Assembly (NCBI GenBank): GCA_950022655.1
Contig: OX465584.1
Location: forward strand, 58,872,335 to 58,936,334
Direction of reading: 5' to 3'
Source: Alentia gelatinosa
Taxonomy: Eukaryota; Annelida; Polychaeta; Phyllodocida; Polynoidae
DNA: 64,000 nucleotides
The stretch's first letter is position 1; each line of letters starts with the position of its first letter. A program made the position numbers and the translations under genes. Below, in pieces: positions 7,672 through 58,798 of this stretch. The notes beneath the pieces were generated by a model. It searched no databases, had not been told where the DNA came from, and saw only the letters and a program-made list of their open reading frames with translations.

Positions 7672-34510
<26,839 letters not shown>

Positions 34511-42394: not shown

Positions 42395-43228
42395 TAAACC
42401 CCGTGGTTAACATACTATGTCTAAGAGGTACAAAGGCCACCTAATTTCCTCTCATCGTTTCACCATGTAAATAATACCTAAATTACTGTGTATATAATAT
42501 GAGACGTGTTACTGTAACAGAAATGTAACCAGTTCAAATATAACTGGCCAGAATACCTGCGCAGCAGAGGCCTGTATGTATTCCTTTTTGTACAATAAAC
42601 CTAAACAAAAAAAACATCCCAAGGTGCTATTAACACTATGTAAGGAGGTCAGGTTGAAGGTCTTGGCTGCTGGGTCAATCTATGCCTTCTATATTCCTTA
42701 TATGGCAATGAAGGCAGAGGGACAACTCTATGCACGAAACATGTTGGCCAGTGGTACGGCATTGGGCTAATTGTCTGGGGAGGTTGAAACCGCTGTTTTA
42801 TCGCTGTGATTGAGGCGCAATTAATGTAATCTTAGCATTAACACACGAAAAAAAATTGATATATTGAAAATAAAAAAGTGAATTCTTTATGGAAAAGTGT
42901 AAAGTTGGTATCTCTAAGAAATTGGCCACTGAAAACCCAGCTTTTTTGTTAGTTAGTTATTCGAACTGGTACAAGAAAGGCTAAGGCATTTAATATGAAG
43001 TATTACCAAGAAAAATTTTTGAGGCAGAAATTGGCTACTGGAAACCCAGCTTTTGGCAGTTTGTTATTCGAGCTTTCAAAAGGAAGACATAGGCATTGAA
43101 TCTGAAGCATTAATGACAAATATTTGGGTCTAAAATTGGCCAGTTTTCTTGACGCTGTGGTTTACAGGCTTGGACATGAAGACATACCAAGAAAAATTTG
43201 TTTGCAGAAATCGGCCACTGGGAACCCA
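42395..43228. other. Intergenic, no gene recognised
   Basis: Bases 42900-43225 hold three loose repeats of a block containing TTGGCCACTG, AACCCAGC and ACCAAGAAAAATTT. Nothing coding was seen. Confidence 0.4.
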
Positions 43229-43526
43229 GGGACCAGTTTCGCTAGTTTTGTGACATGTCTAGATGGTGTGTCCGGTGTCATAAGAACTAGACACTAGACT
43301 TCGTTTTGTCCGTTCTTGCTTGCACTTTTGGTGCCACTTTTCATGTCTGTCTAACACCTTTGTCACAAAACTAGTGAAGCAGGTCCATGGTGTATAGATT
43401 TGTCTAATTCTTATGTTTGGGGTTTGTTTTTTCCTAAGGGCAGCTAATTGTGTTGTAACGAAACTAGACAACCCCAATGTCTGTATGGTGTCGCAGACAT
43501 GTCACGAAACTAGTGAAACAGGTCCC
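43229..43526. mobile_element. MITE family A next to the AChBP-like gene end
   Basis: Full-length copy with ends GGGACCAGTTTCGCTAG and CTAGTGAAACAGGTCCC. It begins 32 bp after the stop codon in transcript order, just beyond the AATAAA signal, so the insertion borders or supplies the end of the 3' untranslated region. Confidence 0.8.
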
Positions 43527-43531
43527 AGCTC

Positions 43532-43557: not shown

Positions 43558-43900
43558 TTAGTCAAGATAGGCCGAGGCGTTGAATAAGAAGCTGTATCGC
43601 ACAACGCTGAACAATTCCGGCATCCGTGACAGTAACTCCTGCTCCGCTCTGGTCTCCAACACTTTGCATGACGTTTCTGTGACGTAATCCGCCGTTTTGA
43701 TGACGTCACTCGTCGACCCAACGACGACCTCGTTGGCTTCGTACATCGGGGTCCAAACACGCATAGAACAGCTCAGCTGATTGGCTCCCGCACTGACGCA
43801 GGGCAGGCGGTATGTGACGTCATAAGCCCACGTCACAGCACCCGCTGACGTAACGATGACGTCATGGCGGTCATGAGAGACGTAGTCTTTGTCGTCAAGA
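43558..43900 (-). CDS. AChBP-like exon 5 (last), residues 135-248 and stop
   Basis: Acceptor TTTCCAG. Encodes LDDKDYVSHDRHDVIVTSAG then AVTWAYDVTYRLPC, the short Cys-loop (C169 to C179), SMRVWTPMYEANEVVV, and a C-terminal RYSFLFNASAYLD before TAA. The loop C stretch EQELLSRMPELF has no cysteine pair. Three TGACGTCA palindromes fall within the exon. Confidence 0.88.
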
Positions 43901-46900
43901 CTGGAAAGTAAAACAAGGATTTTATTTGGGAATATAGAGCCTCCAGAGGTTACTAAACTCCCGATTATCGCCCCGGGTAAAGCAAAGTTCTGCTCCCGAT
44001 AGAATTGGCACACTACGGAAATAATGAACCACAGTTTTCTGATTTATAATTGGAGAAACTGAATATAATTTCGGATTCCCATGTAGAAATAGCTGAAATT
44101 CCCATTTCTGACATCAGAATTTCAATTTGAGGATGTCTGAAAACCGTTAAACTGCATTTATTCTGGGTTATGAGTAAGGGGTCGATCACTATACTATGTC
44201 GTTAACCAGCGAAACCCGGAACTTGTCAACAGACTGAATTACGGGATACCTCAATAGGGTCTATTGTCAGAGGTAGCAAAGACCCTGTTGTGGGGTCCAG
44301 GGAGCAGAGCCCTCAGAACCATTTGGATATCATAGATTATACTACCAGAATGCTGGATTTTAATTGAGGGAGGGGAGGGGTTTACACACCTGATGCCAGG
44401 AGTCCAATAGCAAGGACCCTCTTGGTGGGTTCAGGGGTAGAGTAAAGCCCCTGGATTTCATAGATTGTATAAAGCACGTGATCCACCAAATCGCCGCTCA
44501 GAGATGGCCAGAGGTGGCCGGCCAGCTGGTTTTTACAGAGCCGGCAAGCCAGAGGCAACGACCGCACAGTTGCAGGAGACAGGGTTTTCAATTGGCTGGT
44601 CCGGACAATTCCAGCCGATTTGCTGATCCACCAGGCAGATTGTCCCAGCCGATCTGAGCCGATGAGCGATTTGGGCAGCCGACGTCTACATTTCCTCCAC
44701 ATGGTCATCGTCCGGCCCTAACTCACTCTTGGTGGATCATGTGCTTAAGCTGTTCCCAGGTTCCTTTGAGGGGCACTTGTGACAAACTGGGGAAAGCTGT
44801 AGGGTCCAGAGGCAAAGCTCTTCCTGAGACACCAGGGCAAAGCCCCAAGAAGCATTTGGATTTCACAGATTATAAATACGAACTGTTCCTGGGATTTCGG
44901 TTCAGGAGAAGGGATATTGACACACCTTAGTCTATATGGGCAGACTTAGACGCGAATAAGATGTACTCCATACCGAAGTAATGCAAGGTGTCTGCTTACA
45001 CATGGTGACCCTTTGAAAGGGATAAAAGTAATGCTTAACCCTTTAAGGACGCATGATGCCTGGAGGCATCACCTCACAAAAGACACATGATGCCTGGAGG
45101 CATCACCGCACTAAAGACACATGATACCATGAGGCATCATTGTCCAAATATTAACAAAAATGTTTTAACAAAGAAACAATAGAGCAATACTCATGAAATC
45201 TTCAGAAAATGTAGATATAACATCATGTTTAGTATTTCTATTAAAAAGAAATAAAATATTTATGATTATGTATCATATTGCATGATTGCAAACTTGGATA
45301 TCAGTTTTAACTATTATGTGGCCGTCCTCTAGCCAAACAGACTGCCACCAGCACCCGTCCTTATGGGAGTAACTAGGCCCCAGGCAGCCATCTTAAAGGG
45401 TTAATATAAGGGGGGATTTTTCATCCTGAGCGGAGTTTTTCTGAACAGTAAAACTCCTCTTCCGGGACACCCCGCTTAAGGGGATACCCTGCTTACAGGT
45501 TCAGCGGACACCCTGCTGAATGGGACAATTTGCTCATAACGGAGGATGGTCCCTTAAGCGAGGTTTTACTGTATATGAACCAGATATTTTGGATGTCCAC
45601 TGGAAGATGAAACGTACCTGGGGAAGACCTCAGTCTCCGGAGTCCAGATCTCGTCAGATCGCAGGTGGAGTTTGTCGATGGTGGCGCCATCTGCTGAGTC
45701 CCAGCTGAGTCTTGTGTCTACCCACACCTATCAACAAAGCCAAGAGTTACACAGAAACAGAGTTTCATTTTAAGCCCAATACCCATCTACCGATTTCGGA
45801 ACATTTATGTACGTTTGTCGGCGACAAACGGTGGGTAATTTGTCTCAGCCAAGCCATCCTAACGGAGTCCGTAGATGTAGGACAGCTAGGCAAGGCTACC
45901 CAGCAATTAGTGAACACTTGGTTTCTTTGGTTTTTGCCCTCCCCCAGCGATTAGTGAACCATACACCGATTTTATCAGTGTGCGGGTCAAGCGAGGGATT
46001 ACGTAAATTGCCTGCGACAAGGTGACCAACGATTTGGGAACTAATCGTTCAACCCTAAATCGGTAGATGGGCATCCGGCTTTAGGTAGCGTAAACAAACT
46101 GATTATGGAAGTATATCTGTGCAAAAATATACACCAAGGCTGCGCTGCATCTAATGCCACATCACAGCCTGCAGCATCTGTACCTCATCAAGTGGGATGT
46201 AACTGCTGAGCTGATGGATTTGGATATGCAAGACCGTACTGCTCTGTATAAAACTTTATGGGATGGATACAAAGTGGGTTTGCCAATATTTAAACAGATA
46301 TACTTTCAAAGTTTGTTTACGCTCCCTTTTCAATTGCCAAACCACTTTGCATATGACCATATATGGCAAACTCTGTTTCCGTTTCGACCTGCCGATCATG
46401 GCCACTGATCATGGCATTTGGTGGCCTTGTAGGCCTGTTTCTATTGGCCGATGAAAACAGTGTAGATATTATGAGTTCTCCCAATAGCCTATTTCCATTG
46501 TGCCTCAGCAGTGATAAAGGTCCGTCGGTGGCTCCTGTGTTGATGGGTGACAGTCAATGGAAATGGGTTTTTAGGAGAAATAAAAAATATCTTCACCATT
46601 TTTGTCGGCCAATGGAAACGGGCCTAATGGCGAAACATATATATGCGCGACCACCTTAGATGGTCTCTTTGTATAGTTTTTGTTGGCCGATTTCTATCTA
46701 AATAATCTTAGCTCTAGTTAAAATCACCATGGTTTTGGGTGTTTTGTTTTTTATTGCATTCATACTGAGCTTATTTCTTTCGCATTTCATACTGAAATTT
46801 ATTAGGTGGTTATGTAGTTTATTATCCACCTAATACAAAGTGTCCATAGAAAACACATAGGCAGCGTGTATGGACATACCCAGCGCATACGGATATGTTG

Positions 46901-49900
46901 TATGCTCCGGTGGCGCATACGGAAAAATAGTGCGTATGGAAAAATAGTGCATAACTAAAATCAACTGATATCGACATGTCACTTGTGCAGAAAAGGTGGA
47001 TAATAAATACAATATTTGTAGACTGGTTTCAGATAAAAGCATTTGTATGCGCCTCGGAGTTGACTCTACGCAATATCCTCGCATACACTCGAATATTACT
47101 ACTCAACTACTCTAAGCATACGGCCGCTTGTATCTGAAACCAGTCAATATTGTGTATTTATTGCGATTTTCAGTGCTGTGGTTCTGATTTGGGAGAGAGA
47201 GCAAAGTGTCGTCTGCATAAACTTAAATTTGTTTCAGAGAAATATTGGGTGTCGTTCGCGTATAATAGGAAGAAGAGAGGTCCTACGATCGAACCCTGAG
47301 GGACGCCATTTTTTTATTTATTCATTTATCTATTTATACGGCGAAGATTTTCAGCACAAAGTCGGTATGAATTACCCTCACATTAAGTCCTGGGTATTCA
47401 TATTCACAACGGTTCTTGTTCGGTAGGTAGCAAAGCTACAGATCTATTAAAGTACACCCACAATTTACATAAAGGAAGCATAGCGGTGTAAATACCCAAT
47501 ACGTAATACTGATGGGTTAATGTTAGTGGTGTGGATATTAACATCCTGTATGCCACGGTTATGCCATAAAATATTTATATGCCACTGGTGACATATGAAG
47601 TAAAAAACACATGACAGGGTAGGAAAAGATCTAAACGTCACTCACTTTCATATAATTGTTTACATGCCATTCGTTGTCTTCTGCTACAGATATCACTCAG
47701 CTCCGCTTCATGATATCATTCCGCGAAGACAACTCATGCCATATGAACAATCATATGAAATTTTGTGATGTTTCATGATAGTCTTTGTTCTGTTTGACAG
47801 ATAACTATGGAATCATTTTATTGTTGTGTTGTTAAATTTGTAGTGTTTGAGTTTATGAAGAAGTATTTGTGCAAAGCCGGCATGAAAAGATCTGCGGCCA
47901 TTAGTACCATGTTTTTTTATCTGGTTGGTCGTATTCTCCTCCTATTTGATGACAGATAATATCCTCGTATTTGCTCGGATATTACTGTGGGTCACCTAGC
48001 TAGAGAACATGACGATGCAGATGAAAATCATGGTAATATTGTTTAATTTAGATATCTGATGTGACCTACCTGGCGAACGTGAGCTCTGAAGGTGACAATA
48101 TGGCCGACCGGTTGATAATCAGTAATGGCGATCAGGGAGAGGCTGTGGCCCACCTTTACCTGCACACTTCCATTCACAACTGGCCGCTTCTGTAAAAAAT
48201 AGTGTAAATTTCATGTTTCATATCCCTTCTCTGGGAGTCGTTGCTCCTAGAAATGGGGGGAACACGTTGCTCCAGTAATATTGGATCACGTAATATGGTA
48301 TCCTTGTTTTCACATTGTATCACTACTTTTTAAAACACCACCTTTTCAGTGACATAGGTAAAAGGTTTGAACATTGGATTTTGAATTGAATATAGATGGT
48401 GATAAAGTTATGATGTGATCCGCAAAGAATCTGGAACGACAATTTTGACCTCGGGTCACTATTTTGCAACGCCCCCTTGGAAGAAGAGAAATTATTCAAC
48501 ACTATGTTATGTAAAGCCAAGACACACCAGTTGAGAGACGCTGCGATTTCCCAAATCAAACTGACTGTTTCCGTACGTCAAAGTACTTTGTAAATTTATC
48601 AATAAAAAATATCACTCTGCCTTTAGCATCGGGATATATTTCTCATTCAAGAATAAAAACGTATATTAAGCGTACACACACAGAAAGCGAGTTTCCACTA
48701 TATGGGTACTATATTGTACTTGGCACTTACATAAAATGGCATTTTTTCATGCCTTTTAAGTATATGATAATAAAAAAAATAATGAGTGAACCTGCAGCTC
48801 CCAAGTCCCAGGGTACAAGAAGATGCAGTGAGAAAGTTAGCTGAATGTAGGGGAGAGAGTTCAGGCCCTACTCCACTGCAGCCATTCCTGGGACCTGTTT
48901 CATTAGTTTCGTGACATGTCTAGATGGCGTCTGTGACACCATACGGTCAGATCGGGGTTGACTAGTTTCATGACAACACAAGTAGCGCTCTGCCCTTAGG
49001 ACAAGACATAGCCCAAACACGGTGTGTCTGGTTTCATGAGAATTAGACATTGCCTTGTTATTTGTACTGTAGTGTCACTTTTAGGCTTAGTTCCGTCTGT
49101 GCACTCCATTCTTGCTGGCACTGTTGGTGCCGCTTTTCATATCTGTCTAACACTTTTGTCACGAAACTAGTGAAACAGGTCCCAGTGTAGTGCCAAAACG
49201 GTTACCCTGCCAAAAATGGTAATTATCGCCCACTAGTATCTTGTGCGCATGTGCGAACATGCACAGTGATGAATTCCACAATTGGAGAGTGAGAAATTTG
49301 CGAAAATTAAGCATATCATGACATATCACCACATGTAATTCTCATGTCTAAATACTATTCTTTTCATTTATTTGCATTAAAATCACATCAAAACAGTAGT
49401 ACGTCCAAAAGTCTGTGAAATCTGACTGGAAGATCGTGTGCGGACGCATTCACGTATTGGGTGGGCGATAATTACCATTTTCTGTAATCAGCCCTCATGT
49501 TCTCCTCATGGTCATGCATGAGCCAAGAATAATCAAAGAACGGGTGGAGATTGAGTGAAGATTGTTCGGAGATCAAGAGGACGAGAGAGTGTATATACCT
49601 GGATGTAGGAAGCGAGAGAGTTACCTGGATGTAGGAAGAGTGAGAGTTACCTGGATGTAGGGAGAGAGAGTTACCTGGATGTAGGGAGAGAGTTACCTTG
49701 ATGTAGGGAGAGAGAGTGTTACCTGGATGTACGGAGAGAGAGAGTTACCTGGATGTAGGGAGAGACTTACCTGGATGTAGGGAGTGAGAGAGTTACCTGG
49801 ATGTAGGGAGAGAGAGAGTTACCTGGATGTAGGGAGTGAGAGAGTTACCTGGATGTAGGGAGAGAGTTACCTGGATGTAGGGAGAGAGAGAGTTACCTGG

Positions 49901-52900
49901 ATGTAGGGAGAGAGAGAGTTACCTGGATGTAGGGAGAGAGAGAGTTACCTGGATGTAGGGAGAGAGAGAGTTACCTGGATGTAGGGAGTGAGAGAGTTAC
50001 CTGGATGTAGGGAGAGAGTTACCTGGATGTAGGGAGAGAGAGAGTTACCTGGATGTAGGGAGAGAGAGAGTTACCTGGATGTAGGGAGTGAGAGAGTTAC
50101 CTGGATGTAGGGAGAGAGAGAGTTACCTGGATGTAGGGAGAGAGAGAGTTACCTGGATGTAGGGAGTGAGAGAGTTACCTGGATGTAGGGAGAGAGTTAC
50201 CTGGATGTAGGGAGAGAGAGAGTTACCTGGATGTAGGGAGAGAGAGAGTTACCTGGATGTAGGGAGAGAGAGAGTAATCTGGATGTAGGGAGTGAGAGAG
50301 TTACCTGGATGTAGGGAGAGAGAGAGCTACCTGGATGTAGGGAGTGAGAGAGTTACCTGGATGTAGGGACAGAGAGAGTTACCTGGATGTAGGGAGTGAG
50401 AGAGTTACCTGGATGTAGGGAGTGAGAGAGTTACCTGGATAAAGGGAGTGAGAGAGTTACCTGGATGTAGGGAGTGAGAGAGTTACCTGGATGTAGGGAG
50501 AGAGTTACCTGGATGTAGGGAGTGAGAGAGTTACCTGGATGTAGGGAGAGAGAGTAACCTGGATGTAGGGGAAGAGAGTGTTACCTGGATGTAGGGAGAG
50601 GGAGAGTTACCTGGATGTAGGGAGAGAGAGAGTAACCTGAATGTAGGGAGAGAGTTACCTGGATGTAGGGAGCGAGAGAGTTACCTGGATGTAGGGAGTA
50701 AGAGAGTTACCTGGATGTAGGGAGTGAGAGATTTACCTGGATGTAGGGAGAGGGAGAGTTACCTGGATGTAGGGAGTGAGAGAGTTACCTGGATGTAGGG
50801 AGAGGGAGAGTAACCTGGATGTAGGGAGAGAGAGTTACCTGGATGTAGGGGAAGAGAGTGTTACCGGGATGTAGGGAGAGGGAGAGTAACCTGGATGTAG
50901 GGAGAGGGAGAGTTACCTGGATGTAGGGAGAGGGAGAGTTACCTGGATGTAGGGAGTGGGAGAGTTACCTGGATGTAGGGAGAGAGTTACCTGGATGTAG
51001 GGAGAGAGTTACCTGGATGTAGGGAGAGAGAGAGTTACCTGGATGTAGGGAGTGAGTTACCTGGATGTAGGGAGTGAGAGAGTTACCTGGATGTAGGGAG
51101 AGGGAGAGTTACCTGGATGTAGGGAGAGGGAGAGTTACCTGGATGTAGGGAGTGGGAGAGTTACCTGGATGTAGGGAGAGAGTTACCTGGATGTAGGGAG
51201 TGAGTTACCTGGATGTAGTGAGTGAGAGAGTTACCTGGATGTAGGGAGAGGGAGAGTTACCTGGATGTAGGGAGAGGGAGAGTTACCTGGATGTAGGGAG
51301 AGAGAGAGTTACCTGGATGTAGGGAGTGAGAGAGTTACCTGGATGTAGGGAGAGAGTTACCTGGATGTAGGGAGTGAGTTACCTGGATGTAGGGAGAGAG
51401 AGAGTTACCTGGATGTAGGGAGTAAGAGAGTTACCTGGATGTAGGGAGTGAGAGAGTTACCTGGATGTAGGGAGTGAGAGAGTTACCTGGATGTAGGGAG
51501 TGAGAGAGTTACCTGGATGTAGGGAGTGAGAGAGTTACCAGGATGTAGGGAGTGAGAGGGTTACCTGGATGTAGGGAGAGAGTTACCTGGATGTAGGGAG
51601 TGAGAGGGTTACCTGGATGTAGGGAGAGAGTTACCTGGATGTAGAGAGAGAGTTACCTGGATGTAGGGAGTGAGAGGGTTACCTGGATGTAGGGAGAGAG
51701 TTACCTGGATGTAGAGAGAGAGTTACCTGGATGTAGGGAGTGAGAGGGTTACCTGGATGTAGGGAGAGAGTTACCTGGATGTAGAGAGAGAGTTACCTGG
51801 ATGTAGGGAGTGAGAGGGTTACCTGGATGTAGGGAGAGAGTTACCTGGATGTAGGGAGAGAGTTACCTGGATGTAGGGAGAGAGAGAGAGTTACCTGGAT
51901 GTAGGGAGAGAGAGAGTTACCTGGATGTAGGGAGAGAGAGAGTTACCTGGATGTAGGGAGAGAGAGAGTTACCTGGATGTAGGGAGTGAGAGAGTTACCT
52001 GGATGTAGGGAGAGAGTTACCTGGATGTAGGGAGTGAGAGAGTTACCTGGATGTAGGGAGTGAGAGAGTTACCTGGATGTAGGGAGTGAGAGAGTTACCT
52101 GGATGTAGGGAGAGAGAGAGAGTTACCTGGATGTAGGGAGAGGGAGAGTTACCTGGATGTAGGGAGAGAGTTACCTGGATGTAGGGAGAGAGAGAGTTAC
52201 CTGGATGTAGGGAGTGAGTTACCTGGATGTAGGGAGTGAGAGAGTTACCTGGATGTAGGGAGAGGGAGAGTTACCTGGATGTAGGGAGAGGGAGAGTTAC
52301 CTGAATGTAGGGAGTGGGAGAGTTACCTGGATGTAGGGAGAGAGTTACCTGGATGTAGGGAGTGAGTTACCTGGATGTAGTGAGTGAGAGAGTTACCTGG
52401 ATGTAGGGAGAGGGAGAGTTACCTGGATGTAGGGAGAGGGAGAGTTACCTGGATGTAGGGAGAGAGAGAGTTACCTGGATGTAGGGAGTGAGAGAGTTAC
52501 CTAGATGTAGGGAGAGAGTTACCTGGATGTAGGGAGTGAGTTACCTGGATGTAGGGAGAGAGAGAGTTACCTGGATGTAGGGAGTAAGAGAGTTACCTGG
52601 ATGTAGGGAGTGAGAGAGTTACCTGGATGTAGGGAGTGAGAGAGTTACCTGGATGTAGGGAGTGAGAGAGTTACCTGGATGTAGGGAGAGAGAGAGTTAC
52701 CTGGATGTAGGGAGAGAGAGAGTTACCTGGATGTAGGGAGTGAGAGAGTTACCTGGATGTAGGGAGAGGGAGAGTTACCTGGATGTAGGGAGAGGGAGAG
52801 TTACCTGAATGTAGGGAGTGGGAGAGTTACCTGGATGTAGGGAGAGAGTTACCTGGATGTAGGGAGTGAGTTACCTGGATGTAGTGAGTGAGAGAGTTAC

Positions 52901-55900
52901 CTGGATGTAGGGAGAGGGAGAGTTACCTGGATGTAGGGAGAGGGAGAGTTACCTGGATGTAGGGAGAGAGAGAGTTACCTGGATGTAGGGAGTGAGAGAG
53001 TTACCTGGATGTAGGGAGAGAGTTACCTGGATGTAGGGAGTGAGTTACCTGGATGTAGGGAGAGAGAGAGTTACCTGGATGTAGGGAGTAAGAGAGTTAC
53101 CTGGATGTAGGGAGTGAGAGAGTTACCTGGATGTAGGGAGTGAGAGAGTTACCTGGATGTAGGGAGTGAGAGAGTTACCTGGATGTAGGGAGTGAGAGAG
53201 TTACCAGGATGTAGGGAGTGAGAGGGTTACCTGGATGTAGGGAGAGAGTTACCTGGATGTAGGGAGTGAGAGGGTTACCTGGATGTAGGGAGAGAGTTAC
53301 CTGGATGTAGAGAGAGAGTTACCTGGATGTAGGGAGTGAAAGGGTTACCTGGATGTAGGGAGAGAGTTACCTGGATGTAGAGAGAGAGTTACCTGGATGT
53401 AGGGAGTGAGAGGGTTACCTGGATGTAGGGAGAGAGTTACCTGGATGTAGAGAGAGAGTTACCTGGATGTAGGGAGTGAGAGGGTTACCTGGATGTAGGG
53501 AGAGAGTTACCTGGATGTAGGGAGAGAGTTACCTGGATGTAGGGAGAGAGAGAGAGTTACCTGGATGTAGGGAGAGAGAGAGTTACCTGGATGTAGGGAG
53601 AGAGAGAGTTACCTGGATGTAGGGAGTGAGAGAGTTACCTGGATGTAGGGAGAGAGTTACCTGGATGTAGGGAGTGAGAGAGTTACCTGGATGTAGGGAG
53701 TGAGAGAGTTACCTGGATGTAGGGAGTGAGAGAGTTACCTGGATGTAGGGAGAGAGTTACCTGGATGTAGGGAGAGGGAGAGTTACCTGGATGTAGGGAG
53801 AGAGTTACCTGGATATGGGAGAGAGTTACCTGGATGTAGGGAGTGAGTTACCTGGATGTAGGGAGTGAGAGAGTTACCTGGATGTAGGGAGTGAGAGAGT
53901 TACCTGGATGTAGGGAGTGAGAGAGTTACCTGGATGTAGGGGGGAGAGTTACCTGGATATAGGGAGAGATTGAGTTACCTGGATGTAGGGAGAGATTGAG
54001 TTACCTGGATGTAGGGAGTGAGAGAGTTACCTGGATGTAGGGAGAGAGTTACCTGGATGTAGGGAGTGAGAGAGTTACCTGGATGTAGGGAGAGAGAGAG
54101 TTACCTGGATGGAGGGAGAGAGTTACCTGGATGTAGGGAGAGAGAGAGTTACCTGGATGTAGGGAGTGAGAGAGTTACCTGGATGTAGGGAGAGAGTTAC
54201 CTGGATGTAGGGAGAGGGAGAGTTACCTGGATGTAGGGAGAGAGTTACCTGGATGTAGGGAGAGAGTTACCTGGATGTAGGGAGTGAGTTACCTGGATGT
54301 AGGGAGAGGGAGAGTTACCTGGATGTAGGGAGAGAGTTACCTGGATGTAGGGAGTGAGAGAGAGTTACCTGGATGTAGGGAGTGAGAGAGTTACCTGGAT
54401 GTAGGGAGAGAGAGAGTTACCTGGATGTAGGGAGTGAGAGAGTTACCTGGATGTAGGGAGTGAGAGAGTTACCTGGATGTAGGGAGTGAGAGAGTTACCT
54501 GGATGTAGGGAGAGAGTTACCTGGATGTAGGGAGAGAGAGAGTTACCTGGATGAAGGGAGTGAGAGAGAGTTACCTGGATGTAGGGAGAGAGTTACCTGG
54601 ATGTAGGGAGAGATTGAGTTACCTGGATGTAGGGAGTGAGAGAGTTACCTGGATGTAGGGAGTGAGAGAGTTACCAGGATATAGGGAGAGATTGAGTTAC
54701 CTGGATGTAGGGAGAGAGAGAGAGTTACCTGGATGTAGGGAGAGATTGAGTTACCTGGATGTAGGGAGAGAGAGAGAGTTACCTGGATGTAGGGGGAGAT
54801 TGAGTTACCTGGATGTAGGGAGAGAGAGAGAGTTACCTGGATGTAGGGAGAGATTGAGTTACCTGGATGTAGGGAGAGAGAGAGAGAGTTACCTGGATGT
54901 AGGGAGAGAGAGAGTTACCTGGATGTAGGGACTGAGAGAGTTACCTGGATGAAGGGAGTGACCTGGATGTAGGGAGTGAGAGAGTTACCTGGATGTAGGG
55001 AGAGAGTTACCTGGATGTAGGGAGAGAGAGAGTTACCTGGATGTAGGGAGTGAGAGAGTTACCTGGATAAAGGGAGTGACCTGGATGTAGGGAGTGAGAG
55101 AGTTACCTGGATGTAGGGAGTGAGAGAGTTACCTGGATGTAGGGAGAGAGAGAGCTACCTGGATGTAGGGAGAGAGTTACCTGGATGTAGGGAGTGAGAG
55201 AGTTACCTGGATGTAGGGAGTGAGAGAGTTACCTGGATGTAGGGAGTGAGAGAGTTACCTGGATGAAGGGAGTGACCTGGATGTAGGGAGTGAGAGAGTT
55301 ACCTGGATGTAGGGAGTGAGAGAGTTACCTGGATGTAGGGAGAGTGAGAGAGTTACCTGGATGAAGGGAGTGAGAGAGTTACCTGGATGTAGGGAGTGAG
55401 AGAGTTACCTGGATGTAGGGAGAGAGAGAGTTACCTGGATGTAGGGAGTGAGAGAGTTACCTGGACGTAGGGAGTGAGAGAGTTACCTGGATGTAGGGAG
55501 AGAGTTACCTGGATGTAGGGAGAGATTGAGTTACCTGGATGTAGGGAGTGAGAGAGTTACCTGGATGTAGGGAGAGAGAGAGTTACCTGGATGTAGGGAG
55601 AGAGAGAGTTACCTGGATGTAGGGAGAGATTGAGTTACCTGGATGTAGGGAGAGGGAGAGTTACCTGGATGTAGGGAGTGAGAGAGCTACCTGGATGTAG
55701 GGAGTGAGAGAGTTACCTGGATGTAGGGAGAGAGAGAGTTACCTGGATGTAGGGAGAGAGTAACCTGGATGTAGGGAGAGAGAGAGAGTTACCTGGATGT
55801 AGGGAGTGAGAGTTACCTGGATGTAGGGAGTGAGAGAGTTACCTGGATGTAGGGAGAGGGAGAGTTACCTGGATGTAGGGAGTGAGAGAGTTACCTGGAT

Positions 55901-58798
55901 GTAGGGAGTGAGAGAGTTACCTGGATGTAGGGAGAGATTGAGTTACCTGGATGTAGGGAGTGAGAGAGTTACCTGGATGTAGGGAGAGGGAGAGTTACCT
56001 GGATGTAGGGAGAGAGAGAGTTACCTGGATGTAGGGCTGGTGGAGCAGCGCTCTGCTCACCCGACCTTCCTGGTACCAGCGATCTGAGCTACCAGCGGGC
56101 ACCGACTCCACGCGACCCCTACCAGGAAAAAACAGAGATGAACAATTACAGTTTTCTGATGTGACAATCAATGATGTTCAAGGCCTATATCAGTATATAT
56201 ACCCATGGCCGAATGTCTTACTTTTACTGACCAGTTGTTCAGATTCTGTTTGTCACTGAGTGACGAAAGATTTTCATATGTCCCTCCATACTACGTGACC
56301 ACCCATCCTGCTATTTGGTGAGTTGTAAAAAGGCATTCTTAATGATTTCTACTATAATATAGAGACACAGTGAGGGTGACTGAATTATATCTGTTCCTCA
56401 ATATTTTGGTCCGAAATACTTCAAACTCGGTGAGTATTTCTGATCAAAATATCTCTGAACAGATTCCATTCAGTCACACTAACTATGTCTCTATATAGTA
56501 TTATGTACCCATGGGCGAATGTCTCCCTTTTACTGACCAAGAGTACAGATTCCGTTCGTCACTGAGTGACGAAAGATTATGCATACGTCCCTCTGTACCA
56601 CCTGACCACTGTCATTTTGCTATTCAGTGAGTTTTATCATGGCATTTTTAATTATTTTCAGGTGTAAAATAATAAGGAGACATAGTGAGTGTGACTGAAT
56701 TACATCTGTTCCTTGTTGTTTTGGTCGGAAATATTCACCTCGTTCTACAAACTCGGTGAATATTTCCGACCAAAACAACTAAAAACAGATTTCATTCAGT
56801 CACACTAACCTATTCTCCATATAACAATTCAACACTGACTCCTGATACTCACAAATCCATTATTCAGAATGAATCAGTATTATGAGGAAAGTATTTACTG
56901 AGCCTGTAGTGATGTCGTTCGGGGTCTTTCAACCTGTAACTACGGTCCGATGCCGTAGGTGAAGGACCGAGATTGAGGTGCCGAGAATGGCCTTCATTCT
57001 GAGTTCAGAAATTATGTTTCCTGACTATCAATGAAAAAATACTTACAAAGAAGATAATTATTAGAAAATAATGAAATTTGGTATACATGCACAAAACACA
57101 TGATTCTTCGCTGCAGATATATTTTACTTGGAAACCATTCTCTGACCATTATCACCCGCCATTTCGATTGTATACTGCGAGCAAGAGCCCCCTCCAAGCT
57201 TCGAGGATACCTCTAGGATTAAGAAAGAAATTGATAAGTGTTCAATTGGTCTGTGTCCTCGTTCGCCATCGAGTTTGGAGTGCGCAGTAATATTAGGAAA
57301 CGTCCTTACTGTAGACGAAACGGTTCCTGTTCGAGGTCAGTCGTCGATTTCATACTGCCTGAAGCCATAGGCGGAAGGCAGTATGAAAATGGAGACTGAC
57401 CGAGAACGAGAACCATTTCGTCTACAGTGAGGACGTTTGCTTATTATAATATACCTTTAATTGGTGAAAAACGCCATTTTAATGACATACAAAGTCGCAG
57501 TTACAGCGGGCACGAACATTATTATTACTGCACCCCTAGCAGCGGGCAGTATTTAATAGACATTCGGACATAGGTATATAATAATATGAACGAGTCGATA
57601 GACAAGTGAATATTCTGAAGAAGCATGGCAGGTCGTTTCATATTTGCTATATGTCCGAAATTGATACAGACAATTAATTTAATTTGCCCTAACAACTGAT
57701 ATTTTAGTCAACGCGTATGGAACAGTGTTCAGTATTTTCCCGGACGGAACAATGTTCAGTACAGTATTTTTACGTTATATGGTGAAACAGTGCGTATTTA
57801 CAGTACTTATATAGAACGTCCTGACCATGCTGTACAATTTACAGAACGAGATGCTAATTTACGGTGTGTACGGACCGAGGCATTTATGCCGAGTTCCGTA
57901 CAAACGGTAAATTATCATCGAGTTCTGTGACTTGTACAAGCATGGTTGGACGTTATATATTTACTATATGCCCGAAATTAAAAAAAAATAATCAATTTCA
58001 ATTGGCTTAACAACCAATTTTTTAATAAATGTGTATGGCAAGGTGGTCCGTATTTTAGTGTACGGACCGGCGGTCCGTACAGTATTTTTACGTCATATGC
58101 CGAAACGGTGCGTATTTACAGTATATACGGCATGGGTATATAGTAAATACATGTACACGGCATGTGTATATATTCTGAAACCCTTCAAATGAAATGGTTA
58201 TTGGGGACACAGATGAAACACGAATATGTTTCTGATTTTATCTTAGCCTTGATATAGTTTTCTGTTCATCACACACTGAGGCTGAGTTATCGTACTTATG
58301 CCTATGGACGTTTATACCAGGCTAAGATAACATATACTTATATACAACGTCCTGACCATGCTGTACAAGTTACAGAACGAGATGCTAATTTGCCATTTGT
58401 ACGGACCGAGGCGTTTACGCCGAGTTCCGTACAAATGGTAAATTAGCATCAAGTTCTGTGACTTTTACAAGCATGGTTGGACGTTATACATTTATTATAT
58501 ACCCACAATCTTTTTTAAATCAACTTTATTTTTCCTAACAACCAAAATTTTAATAAATGTGTATTTTAGTGTACGGACCAGTGGTCCGTACAGTATTTTT
58601 ACTGGCAATCTCATACAGTGACTTGACTGTAGGGACCCACTGTTTACTCTTCCTTTTTTCAGTATTTATCACCTTAACAACTTCATTTTTACTGGTATTT
58701 TAAAATAACCATTCTTACCGCGATCCTCGCCTCCTGCCACGCGCATGCCCAGTGCCAAGAAGCACGAGGGCCACGACCACCAGGTGGAGCCACCCCAT
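43558..58798 (-). CDS. Secreted acetylcholine-binding-protein-like Cys-loop protein (5 coding exons)
   Basis: Five minus-strand exons join in phase into 248 residues. Residues 1-20 are a signal peptide (MGWLHLVVVALVLLGTGHA). The rest is the extracellular domain of a nicotinic-type Cys-loop receptor: RPVVNGS near 60; tryptophans of the loop D region in VRQVWVDTRLSW (96-108); EIWTPE (126-131, loop A); a cysteine pair C169/C179; and RVWTPMY (loop B). It stops (TAA) at the end of strand beta-10, just where M1 would start. No membrane helices follow in the 9 kb downstream, and AATAAA lies 21 nt after the stop. This layout matches molluscan and annelid acetylcholine-binding proteins, which are secreted pentamers. 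Oddities: the Cys-loop has 9 residues between cysteines (13 in receptors, 12 in snail AChBP), and loop C lacks the vicinal cysteines. Possible N-glycosylation at N64 and N242. Ligand unknown. Alternative: a receptor truncated by the adjoining MITE. Confidence 0.82.
44260..44930 (+). repeat. Degenerate tandem repeat in AChBP-like intron 4
   Basis: Three loose units share GGGTCCAGRG-type, AGAGCC/AAGCTC and GGATTTCAYAGATTATA-like blocks (about 44280, 44420 and 44810). Non-coding. Confidence 0.5.
45035..45404. mobile_element. TTAA-flanked MITE with three micro-palindromes (copy 4)
   Basis: Starts TTAACCCTTTAAGGACGC and ends CCATCTTAAAGGGTTAA. The palindromes are GATGCCTGGAGGCATC (45054 and 45088) and GATACCATGAGGCATC (45122), spaced about 34 bp. 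In AChBP-like intron 4. Confidence 0.85.
45618..45727 (-). CDS. AChBP-like exon 4, residues 99-134
   Basis: A 110-bp exon with acceptor TGATAG and donor GTACGT, ending in phase 2. Encodes VWVDTRLSWDSADGATIDKL, then SDEIWTPETEVFP. It matches the 'WxxxxWxDxRLxWxPxDY...WxPDI' region of nicotinic subunits; the loop A tyrosine is replaced. Confidence 0.93.
46431..46626. mobile_element. 200-bp MITE, GTTTCCATTGG type
   Basis: Ends AGGCCTGTTTCTATTGGCCG and CGGCCAATGGAAACGGGCCT. Same family as 25981 and 26309. In AChBP-like intron 3. Confidence 0.75.
46800..47150. repeat. Foldback repeat
   Basis: TTATTATCCACCTAATACAA (also at 1287) begins a block with repeated GCATACGG and its complement, a GACTGGTTTCAGATA arm at 47020 and a TATCTGAAACCAGTC arm at 47131. 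In AChBP-like intron 3. Confidence 0.55.
47635..47770. repeat. Foldback-superfamily hairpin
   Basis: TTTCATATAATTGTTTACAT pairs with a GAACAATCATATGAAA arm, and GTTGTCTTCTG with a CGAAGACAAC arm. The loop is CACTCAGCTCCGCTTCATG. A GGGTAGGAAAAGATC end precedes it. Confidence 0.7.
48070..48189 (-). CDS. AChBP-like exon 3, residues 59-98
   Basis: A 120-bp exon, phase 0 at both ends, with acceptor TTTACAG and donor GTAGGT. Encodes KRPVVNGSVQVKVGHSLSLI then TDYQPVGHIVTFRAHVRQ, matching the 'RPVxNxSxxxxVxxxLxLxxIxxxDexxq' region of nicotinic subunits. Confidence 0.93.
48890..49183. mobile_element. MITE family A
   Basis: Ends GGGACCTGTTTCATTAG and CTAGTGAAACAGGTCCC. In AChBP-like intron 2, about 400 bp from the minisatellite. 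Confidence 0.8.
49590..56036 (-). repeat. Splice-site minisatellite, about 6.4 kb in AChBP-like intron 2
   Basis: On the plus strand the unit is GTTACCTGGATGTAGGGAG plus a variable AGAGA or TGAGAGA tail, mostly 22 or 26 bp, roughly 260 units. On the transcribed strand each unit reads CCCTACATCCAG then GTAACT after a CT-rich run. The last plus-strand unit runs without a break into exon 2: the exon's final 12 bases (CCCTACATCCAG, codons PYIQ) and its donor are a repeat unit. Segments of the array are themselves duplicated, for example with an offset of about 1667 bp. Single-base variants (GTAGTGAG, TTACCAGG, GAAGGGAG) mark sub-blocks. Assembly length should be treated with caution. Confidence 0.97.
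56025..56118 (-). CDS. AChBP-like exon 2, residues 27-58
   Basis: A 94-bp exon with acceptor CTGGTAG and donor GTAACT, phase 0 at its end. Encodes GRVESVPAGSSDRWYQEGRV then SRALLHQPYIQ, the N-terminal helix region before RPVVN. The last four codons and the donor belong to the adjoining minisatellite. The donor used by the gene should be the first of the series. Confidence 0.85.
56180..56830 (+). repeat. Tandem duplication with hairpins, AChBP-like intron 1
   Basis: Two units of about 340 bp (from CCATGGCCGAATGTCT at 56203 and CCATGGGCGAATGTCT at 56511). Each ends in a hairpin: GTGACTGAATTAYATCTGTT pairs with a GATTYCATTCAGTCACAC arm, and an inner stem of AATATTTCCGACCAAAAC pairs with its complement. 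Confidence 0.75.
57299..57595. mobile_element. Hairpin element, inverse copy of 32070-32358
   Basis: Stem AAACGTCCTTACTGTAGACG pairs with CGTCTACAGTGAGGACGTTT. The inner stem TCATACTGCC pairs with GGCAGTATGA around a GAAGCCATAGGCGGAA loop. The tail contains AATGACATACAAAGTCGCAG. In AChBP-like intron 1. Confidence 0.8.
57700..58600. repeat. Two related foldback blocks with long stems
   Basis: The hairpin at about 57795-57960 has stem ACGTCCTGACCATGCTGTAC pairing with a TACAAGCATGGTTGGACGT arm. It recurs at about 58345-58490 with the same outer stem and a changed inner stem. GTACGGACCGGCGGTCCGTAC-type palindromes lie at 58059 and 58573. Confidence 0.75.
58719..58798 (-). CDS. AChBP-like exon 1, residues 1-26 (signal peptide)
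   Basis: Starts at ATG 58798-58796 and ends at donor GTAAGA, two bases into codon 27. Encodes MGWLHLVVVALVLLGTGHAR then a basic GRRRGS. The hydrophobic core and small residues before GHA fit a signal peptide cleaved near residue 19. The join to exon 2 rests on phase, order and sense rather than strong homology. Confidence 0.75.

Follow-up and report, generated by a model that had tools for sequence, protein, structure and literature searches.

A minisatellite carrying the exon 2 splice donor in an AChBP-like gene of the polychaete Alentia gelatinosa

How does a spliceosome treat an intron in which the donor of the preceding exon is repeated about 257 times? The question is raised by a minisatellite in the genome of Alentia gelatinosa (assembly GCA_950022655.1, contig OX465584.1). 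The window analysed here is a 64,000-nucleotide stretch of that contig (positions 58,872,335 to 58,936,334, forward strand); coordinates are counted from its first letter. A preliminary description of the window had proposed that the array was founded by the exon 2 junction of an AChBP-like gene, and that its units are potential recursive splice sites. The array lends itself to testing how the spliceosome selects one site from hundreds that are nearly identical. It also bears on whether a junction-founded repeat can grow because removal at any copy yields the same mRNA.

The host gene and its product

The gene lies on the minus strand. Its five exons form a complete model with consistent phases and an open 248-residue protein. 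Exon 1 (58719..58798) holds the start codon and, by eye, looks like the coding region of a signal peptide. Exon 2 (56025..56118) ends in CCCTACATCCAG, with 56025 as its last base, and is followed by the donor GTAACT. Exon 3 (48070..48189) is 120 nt long and exon 4 occupies 45618..45727; exon 5 (43558..43900) includes the stop codon. Exon 3 can be skipped in frame, leaving 208 residues, whereas skipping of exon 2 or exon 4 is out of frame. Intron 1 contains two stretches (56140-56810) which by eye are similar and hairpin-like.

Residues 46-223 of the spliced protein match PF02931, the ligand-binding domain of neurotransmitter-gated channels (86.2 bits); no other Pfam family matches the protein at E 0.001. 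It has 144 matches to solved structures. Most of the 60 listed are nicotinic receptor subunits; the best of them is Capitella teleta AChBP (E 4e-16). A search for relatives of the protein gave 1053 word-sharing candidates, none of them at E <= 0.001. The predicted product is a ligand-binding-domain-only protein, and the name AChBP-like is fair because the reading frame stops soon past the binding domain. The gene and exon assignment made earlier is thus upheld by the five-exon model, the PF02931 match and the match to Capitella teleta AChBP. The exon 5 region (43558-43900, minus strand) encodes a short Cys-loop, as in the aligned Capitella AChBP. Typical acetylcholine-binding subunits have an adjacent cysteine pair; this pair is absent from the protein described here.

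The array and its origin

The donor minisatellite occupies 49593..56024 (minus strand) in intron 2 and, by Tandem Repeats Finder and segmentation, consists of 257 units of 18-30 nt, mostly 26 or 22. Tandem Repeats Finder itself gives 49596-56036, with a period of 26 and 257.6 copies. As assembled, the intronic array measures 6432 nt, which is 82% of the 7835-nt intron 2; 1403 nt remain without it. Segmentation on the 16-nt core CTACATCCAG|GTAACT gives 258 cores, including that of exon 2 itself; 213 have no mismatch, 36 have one and 9 have two. Core spacings are 26 nt (177 cases), 22 (60), 28 (10), 24 (4), 18 (3), and 30, 23 and 21 (one each). All are between 18 and 30 nt, and the array is therefore unbroken. 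The gap-free segmentation and the copy number agree with the earlier account of about 260 units running without interruption into the coding end of exon 2.

In a typical unit, the final 12 bases of the exon are followed by the donor and then by a stretch rich in C and T. It had been claimed that every unit repeats the exon end and the donor; this is correct for the typical unit but not universally. The 12 exon bases (56025..56036, minus strand) match the modal unit without a break and are intact in 226 of the 257 intronic units (88%). GT is kept in 257 of 258 cores, AG in 254, and AG|GT in 253 (98%). The exact sequence CAGGTAACT is found in 225 of 258 cores; outside the array it occurs on neither strand of the window, but only 0.44 occurrences are expected by base count, so this absence says little. 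Neither viral_contigs (viruses) nor genome_contigs (bacteria and archaea) contains an exact match to the 21-nt pattern of the unit. The transcript strand is 70% pyrimidine, and CTCTCT is present in 190 of the 257 units. These features, together with the 257 GT donors, could suit an RNA-binding platform, in which hundreds of pyrimidine and U1 sites would concentrate or sequester splicing factors. The pyrimidine stretches would be PTB-like sites and the donors U1-binding sites, both factors being putative binders, and a role of this kind appears very unlikely.

The exon 2 junction is likely to be the founder of the array, since both the frame of exon 2 and, very nearly, its length agree with the receptor family. 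Exon 2 ends at residue 58, and the PF02931 match begins 13 residues earlier, at residue 46. In the comparison with PDB structures, 18 of 58 rows reach back to the exon 2 side, beginning no later than query residue 18; aligned lengths are equal in 10 of these and differ by one or two residues in 8, many rows being near-identical chains. The five printed alignments begin at query residues 21-29, no earlier than the region where exon 2 ends, so that colinearity is supported, though not proven, by the aligned ranges and the Pfam start. A 56-residue query spanning the joint of exons 2 and 3 found no match in PDB. The modal unit and the exon end have 12 contiguous bases in common and diverge further into the exon, which is in keeping with the junction founding proposed in the preliminary description. 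The identity of these 12 bases with the modal unit could also be explained in the opposite direction, if the array came first and the exon end was overwritten through conversion. Such an origin is set aside as most improbable; exon 2 matches the receptor family in frame, and its length is within two residues.

At a lag of 67 units there are runs of 20 and of 11 identical units, and at a lag of 20 there is one of 11. When the unit order was shuffled (200 shuffles), such runs reached at most 7. These block duplications suggest past instability of the array. Common unit types account for 13 of 26 units in one distal bin, 17 of 23 in the last bin and 18-25 of 26 in the others. No graded decay away from the exon was found: mismatches per core are flat except in the last two cores. 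AG|GT is less variable than the other core positions, with 4 of 39 collapsed events (binomial 0.019) or 5 of 54 raw events (0.003), although the copies are non-independent and certain other positions of the core vary no more than these. Selection on AG|GT, which would argue against pure passivity, is at most weakly indicated.

Past the array there is a degenerate unit-like stretch (48828..48856, minus strand) with 7 mismatches in 29; in six mononucleotide shuffles, no stretch came within 9 mismatches of the unit. From its end at 48856 it is separated from the array by inverted-repeat elements at 48888-49185 and 49213-49481. The first of these is related to an element just past the stop codon (43226-43528); the second is different. 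Another minisatellite is found in the window at 10201-10493 (22 bp x 13.3, 98% alike), at no recognised exon. Long open reading frames on the minus strand at 10996-13911 have a weak phage-integrase match (E 0.01, below the cut-off) and are, we presume, perhaps those of a tyrosine-recombinase retroelement of DIRS type. Inside this stretch, 11911-12325 is a perfect 208-bp tandem duplication (100% matches), which is either recent or an assembly effect.

Splice-site form, coding consequences and function

Splice sites were scored with approximate weight matrices, against the window's 6849 other GT and 6767 other AG sites. On these approximate matrices the array's median donor is at the 99.4th percentile and its median acceptor at the 99.1st; 254 of 258 acceptors score above the 90th percentile of other AG sites, and the median acceptor score is 9.1, with the gene's own four acceptors at 5.3-10.2. 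By the same matrices, the top-scoring donor of the array is that of the sole CAGGTAAGT copy, near the distal end (last base before GT at 49771, minus strand). With these percentiles and with AG|GT in 253 of 258 cores, the array has the unit form first ascribed to it, a pyrimidine tract followed by CAG|GTAACT.

This form is that of a recursive splice site, and it invites the reading of the intron as a splicing-neutral ladder. Any of about 250 AGs in the array would serve as an acceptor that captures exon 2 and rebuilds CAG|GTAACT at each step; the intron would be removed stochastically in many steps, and the mRNA would be unchanged, the regenerated junction being the same by construction. The 253 AG|GT sites are consistent with a ladder, as is the array's median summed acceptor and donor score, which on the approximate matrices is exceeded at one of the 436 other AGGT sites in the window. 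GTAAC, a near match to the branch site, is present in 243 of 257 units, 17-26 nt ahead of the next CAG, and 106 units have a perfect YTNAY, mostly 14 nt ahead of the next CAG. The second-next donors lie 43-56 nt on, which is near the RS-exon of about 50 nt reported in the fly (PMC8605326). However, the donor shares bases with the motif that resembles a branch site, and one unit, at 18-30 nt, is too short for an intron.

Other evidence argues against a ladder. Measured against the very long introns that hold recursive sites in the fly (PMC6110457), intron 2 is short, with 7.8 kb in all and 1.4 kb outside the array, although that scale may not apply to this host. Mutant flies are reported to include the cryptic exon when its donor is stronger than the ratchet donor (PMC8605326). 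The array donors are mostly identical, so cryptic-exon inclusion would compete with recursive removal. The proposal of recursive sites is therefore borne out in form, by AG|GT at 253 of 258 sites, but not in donor strength: with 225 of 258 donors identical, the ratchet donor has no advantage over the cryptic one downstream of it. Inclusion would also mostly break the frame. From array acceptors to any of the next 39 donors there are 9088 possible pseudo-exons; 2988 of these are multiples of three, and just 73 are open in frame. A ladder is accordingly doubtful. If it were true, repeats founded by a junction whose intron begins with pyrimidines would be a class of arrays able to expand freely, because the mRNA is the same whichever copy is used.

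Translation shows that the reading frame survives with only one of the 257 GT donors, exon 2's own. Read-through from exon 2 meets a stop after nine intronic codons, and retention of one 26-nt unit leads to a stop at position 72. Extension of the protein through array units was considered and is ruled out, as no donor but the first keeps the reading frame open.

The array might have no effect on splicing at all, being a junction-founded minisatellite that is tolerated since the first donor is always used. It lies in an intron, and use of its frame-breaking sites would be selected against. The gene's own sites are also strong: on the approximate matrices, and relative to the window's other GT and AG sites, its four donors are at percentiles 98.9-99.8 and its four acceptors at 92.6-99.5, so all are above the 92nd. 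On the other hand, the human ABCA7 repeat, which is similar in layout and size, is reported to be associated with altered splicing and expression (PMC5954066). A mere passenger is a possible reading, but not a probable one.

On balance, we lean towards a splice-donor VNTR that was founded by the junction and whose hindrance to the joining of exons 2 and 3 is most likely mild or nil. The founding segment, duplicated in tandem, would have run from 12 bases inside exon 2 through the donor GTAACT into the CT-rich start of the intron. The copied intron start is pyrimidine-rich, so that a tract would precede each copied exon end, and most units would look like acceptor-donor pairs without selection. 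Expansion would have occurred through slippage or unequal exchange and would have included blocks of tens of units; the identity between exon end and units is observed, while the direction of copying and the process are what we infer. Most transcripts would probably join the exon-borne, outermost donor to exon 3. The remaining donors would be decoys, use of which is predicted from translation to break the frame. By analogy with ABCA7, great array length may impede splicing between exons 2 and 3 and promote the in-frame loss of exon 3, with a fall in expression. Decoy donors and copy-number effects, both raised in the preliminary description, would appear to fit better than recursive use, because human ABCA7 has nearly the same layout.

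Comparison with known systems

Ratchet points of Drosophila resemble the array units in having a pyrimidine tract followed by AG|GT (PMC8605326, PMC6110457), a form found at 253 of 258 array sites. As described in these sources, ratchet points are conserved, have strong acceptors and strong regenerated donors, and sit in very long introns (PMC6110457 for the last). The array, in contrast, packs sites by the hundred, most of them identical, into an intron of 7.8 kb.

Human UBC has tandem dual-specific splice sites, in which the repeat boundaries are AG|GT and can serve as donor or acceptor, the spliced segments being multiples of the unit (PMC10809524). The array repeats are likewise bounded by AG|GT, again in 253 of 258 cases. 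UBC repeats are coding, 228 nt long and frame-neutral (PMC10809524), whereas the array units are intronic, 18-30 nt long and frame-breaking.

Closer parallels are found in the human genes ABCA7, CBS and IFI6, which are grouped in this analysis as junction-founded splice-donor VNTRs. The array has two features of this group: it begins at the authentic donor and includes it, and its units carry a donor (GT in 257 of 258). The minisatellite of IFI6 (6-16) supplies several splice donors (Turri et al. 1995, as cited in PMC2572611, PMC2915984 and PMC4526556), and so resembles the array in having repeated donors at an exon end. It differs in that two downstream units are reported to serve as donors and yield isoforms (PMC4526556). 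By its nomenclature, the unit of the 31-bp VNTR of CBS, c.1444_1467+7, also spans an exon-intron junction, with 24 exon and 7 intron bases (PMC2630376). It is described with 16-21 copies, compared with about 257 in the array. In a 68-bp duplication of a CBS junction, the more distal site is reported to be preferred (PMC2630376); use of the outermost donor in the array is therefore not to be presumed.

The nearest relative in layout is ABCA7. Its intron 18 VNTR has a 25-bp unit in 12-427 copies, the first two bases of which are the GT of the exon 18 donor. Skipping of exon 19 is reported to rise with VNTR length, 3.2-fold between extreme samples and 4.1-fold between the alleles of one person, and expression drops as the VNTR lengthens. 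Retention of one unit is about 2% and does not change with length (all PMC5954066); therefore, decoy use need not rise with copy number. Both repeats have a pyrimidine-rich unit and start at the GT of an exon donor, and in both the downstream exon can be skipped in frame. They differ in that the ABCA7 unit, as printed in PMC6857246, is donor-only and has no AG|GT at the joint, while the array units carry 12 exon bases and CAG|GT. ABCA7 is also backed by RNA and disease data, the present array being described from genome sequence. Should array length act here as it does in ABCA7, donor-containing repeats would be a more general route by which tandem repeats tune splicing.

Because its layout is nearly that of human ABCA7, the array seems less unprecedented than was first thought; it is probably a striking new example of donor-carrying repeats. 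Its dual-specific units may yet cause it to behave unlike known donor VNTRs. The donor of a single exon has here been copied about 257 times, in units with acceptor features that the printed ABCA7 unit lacks.
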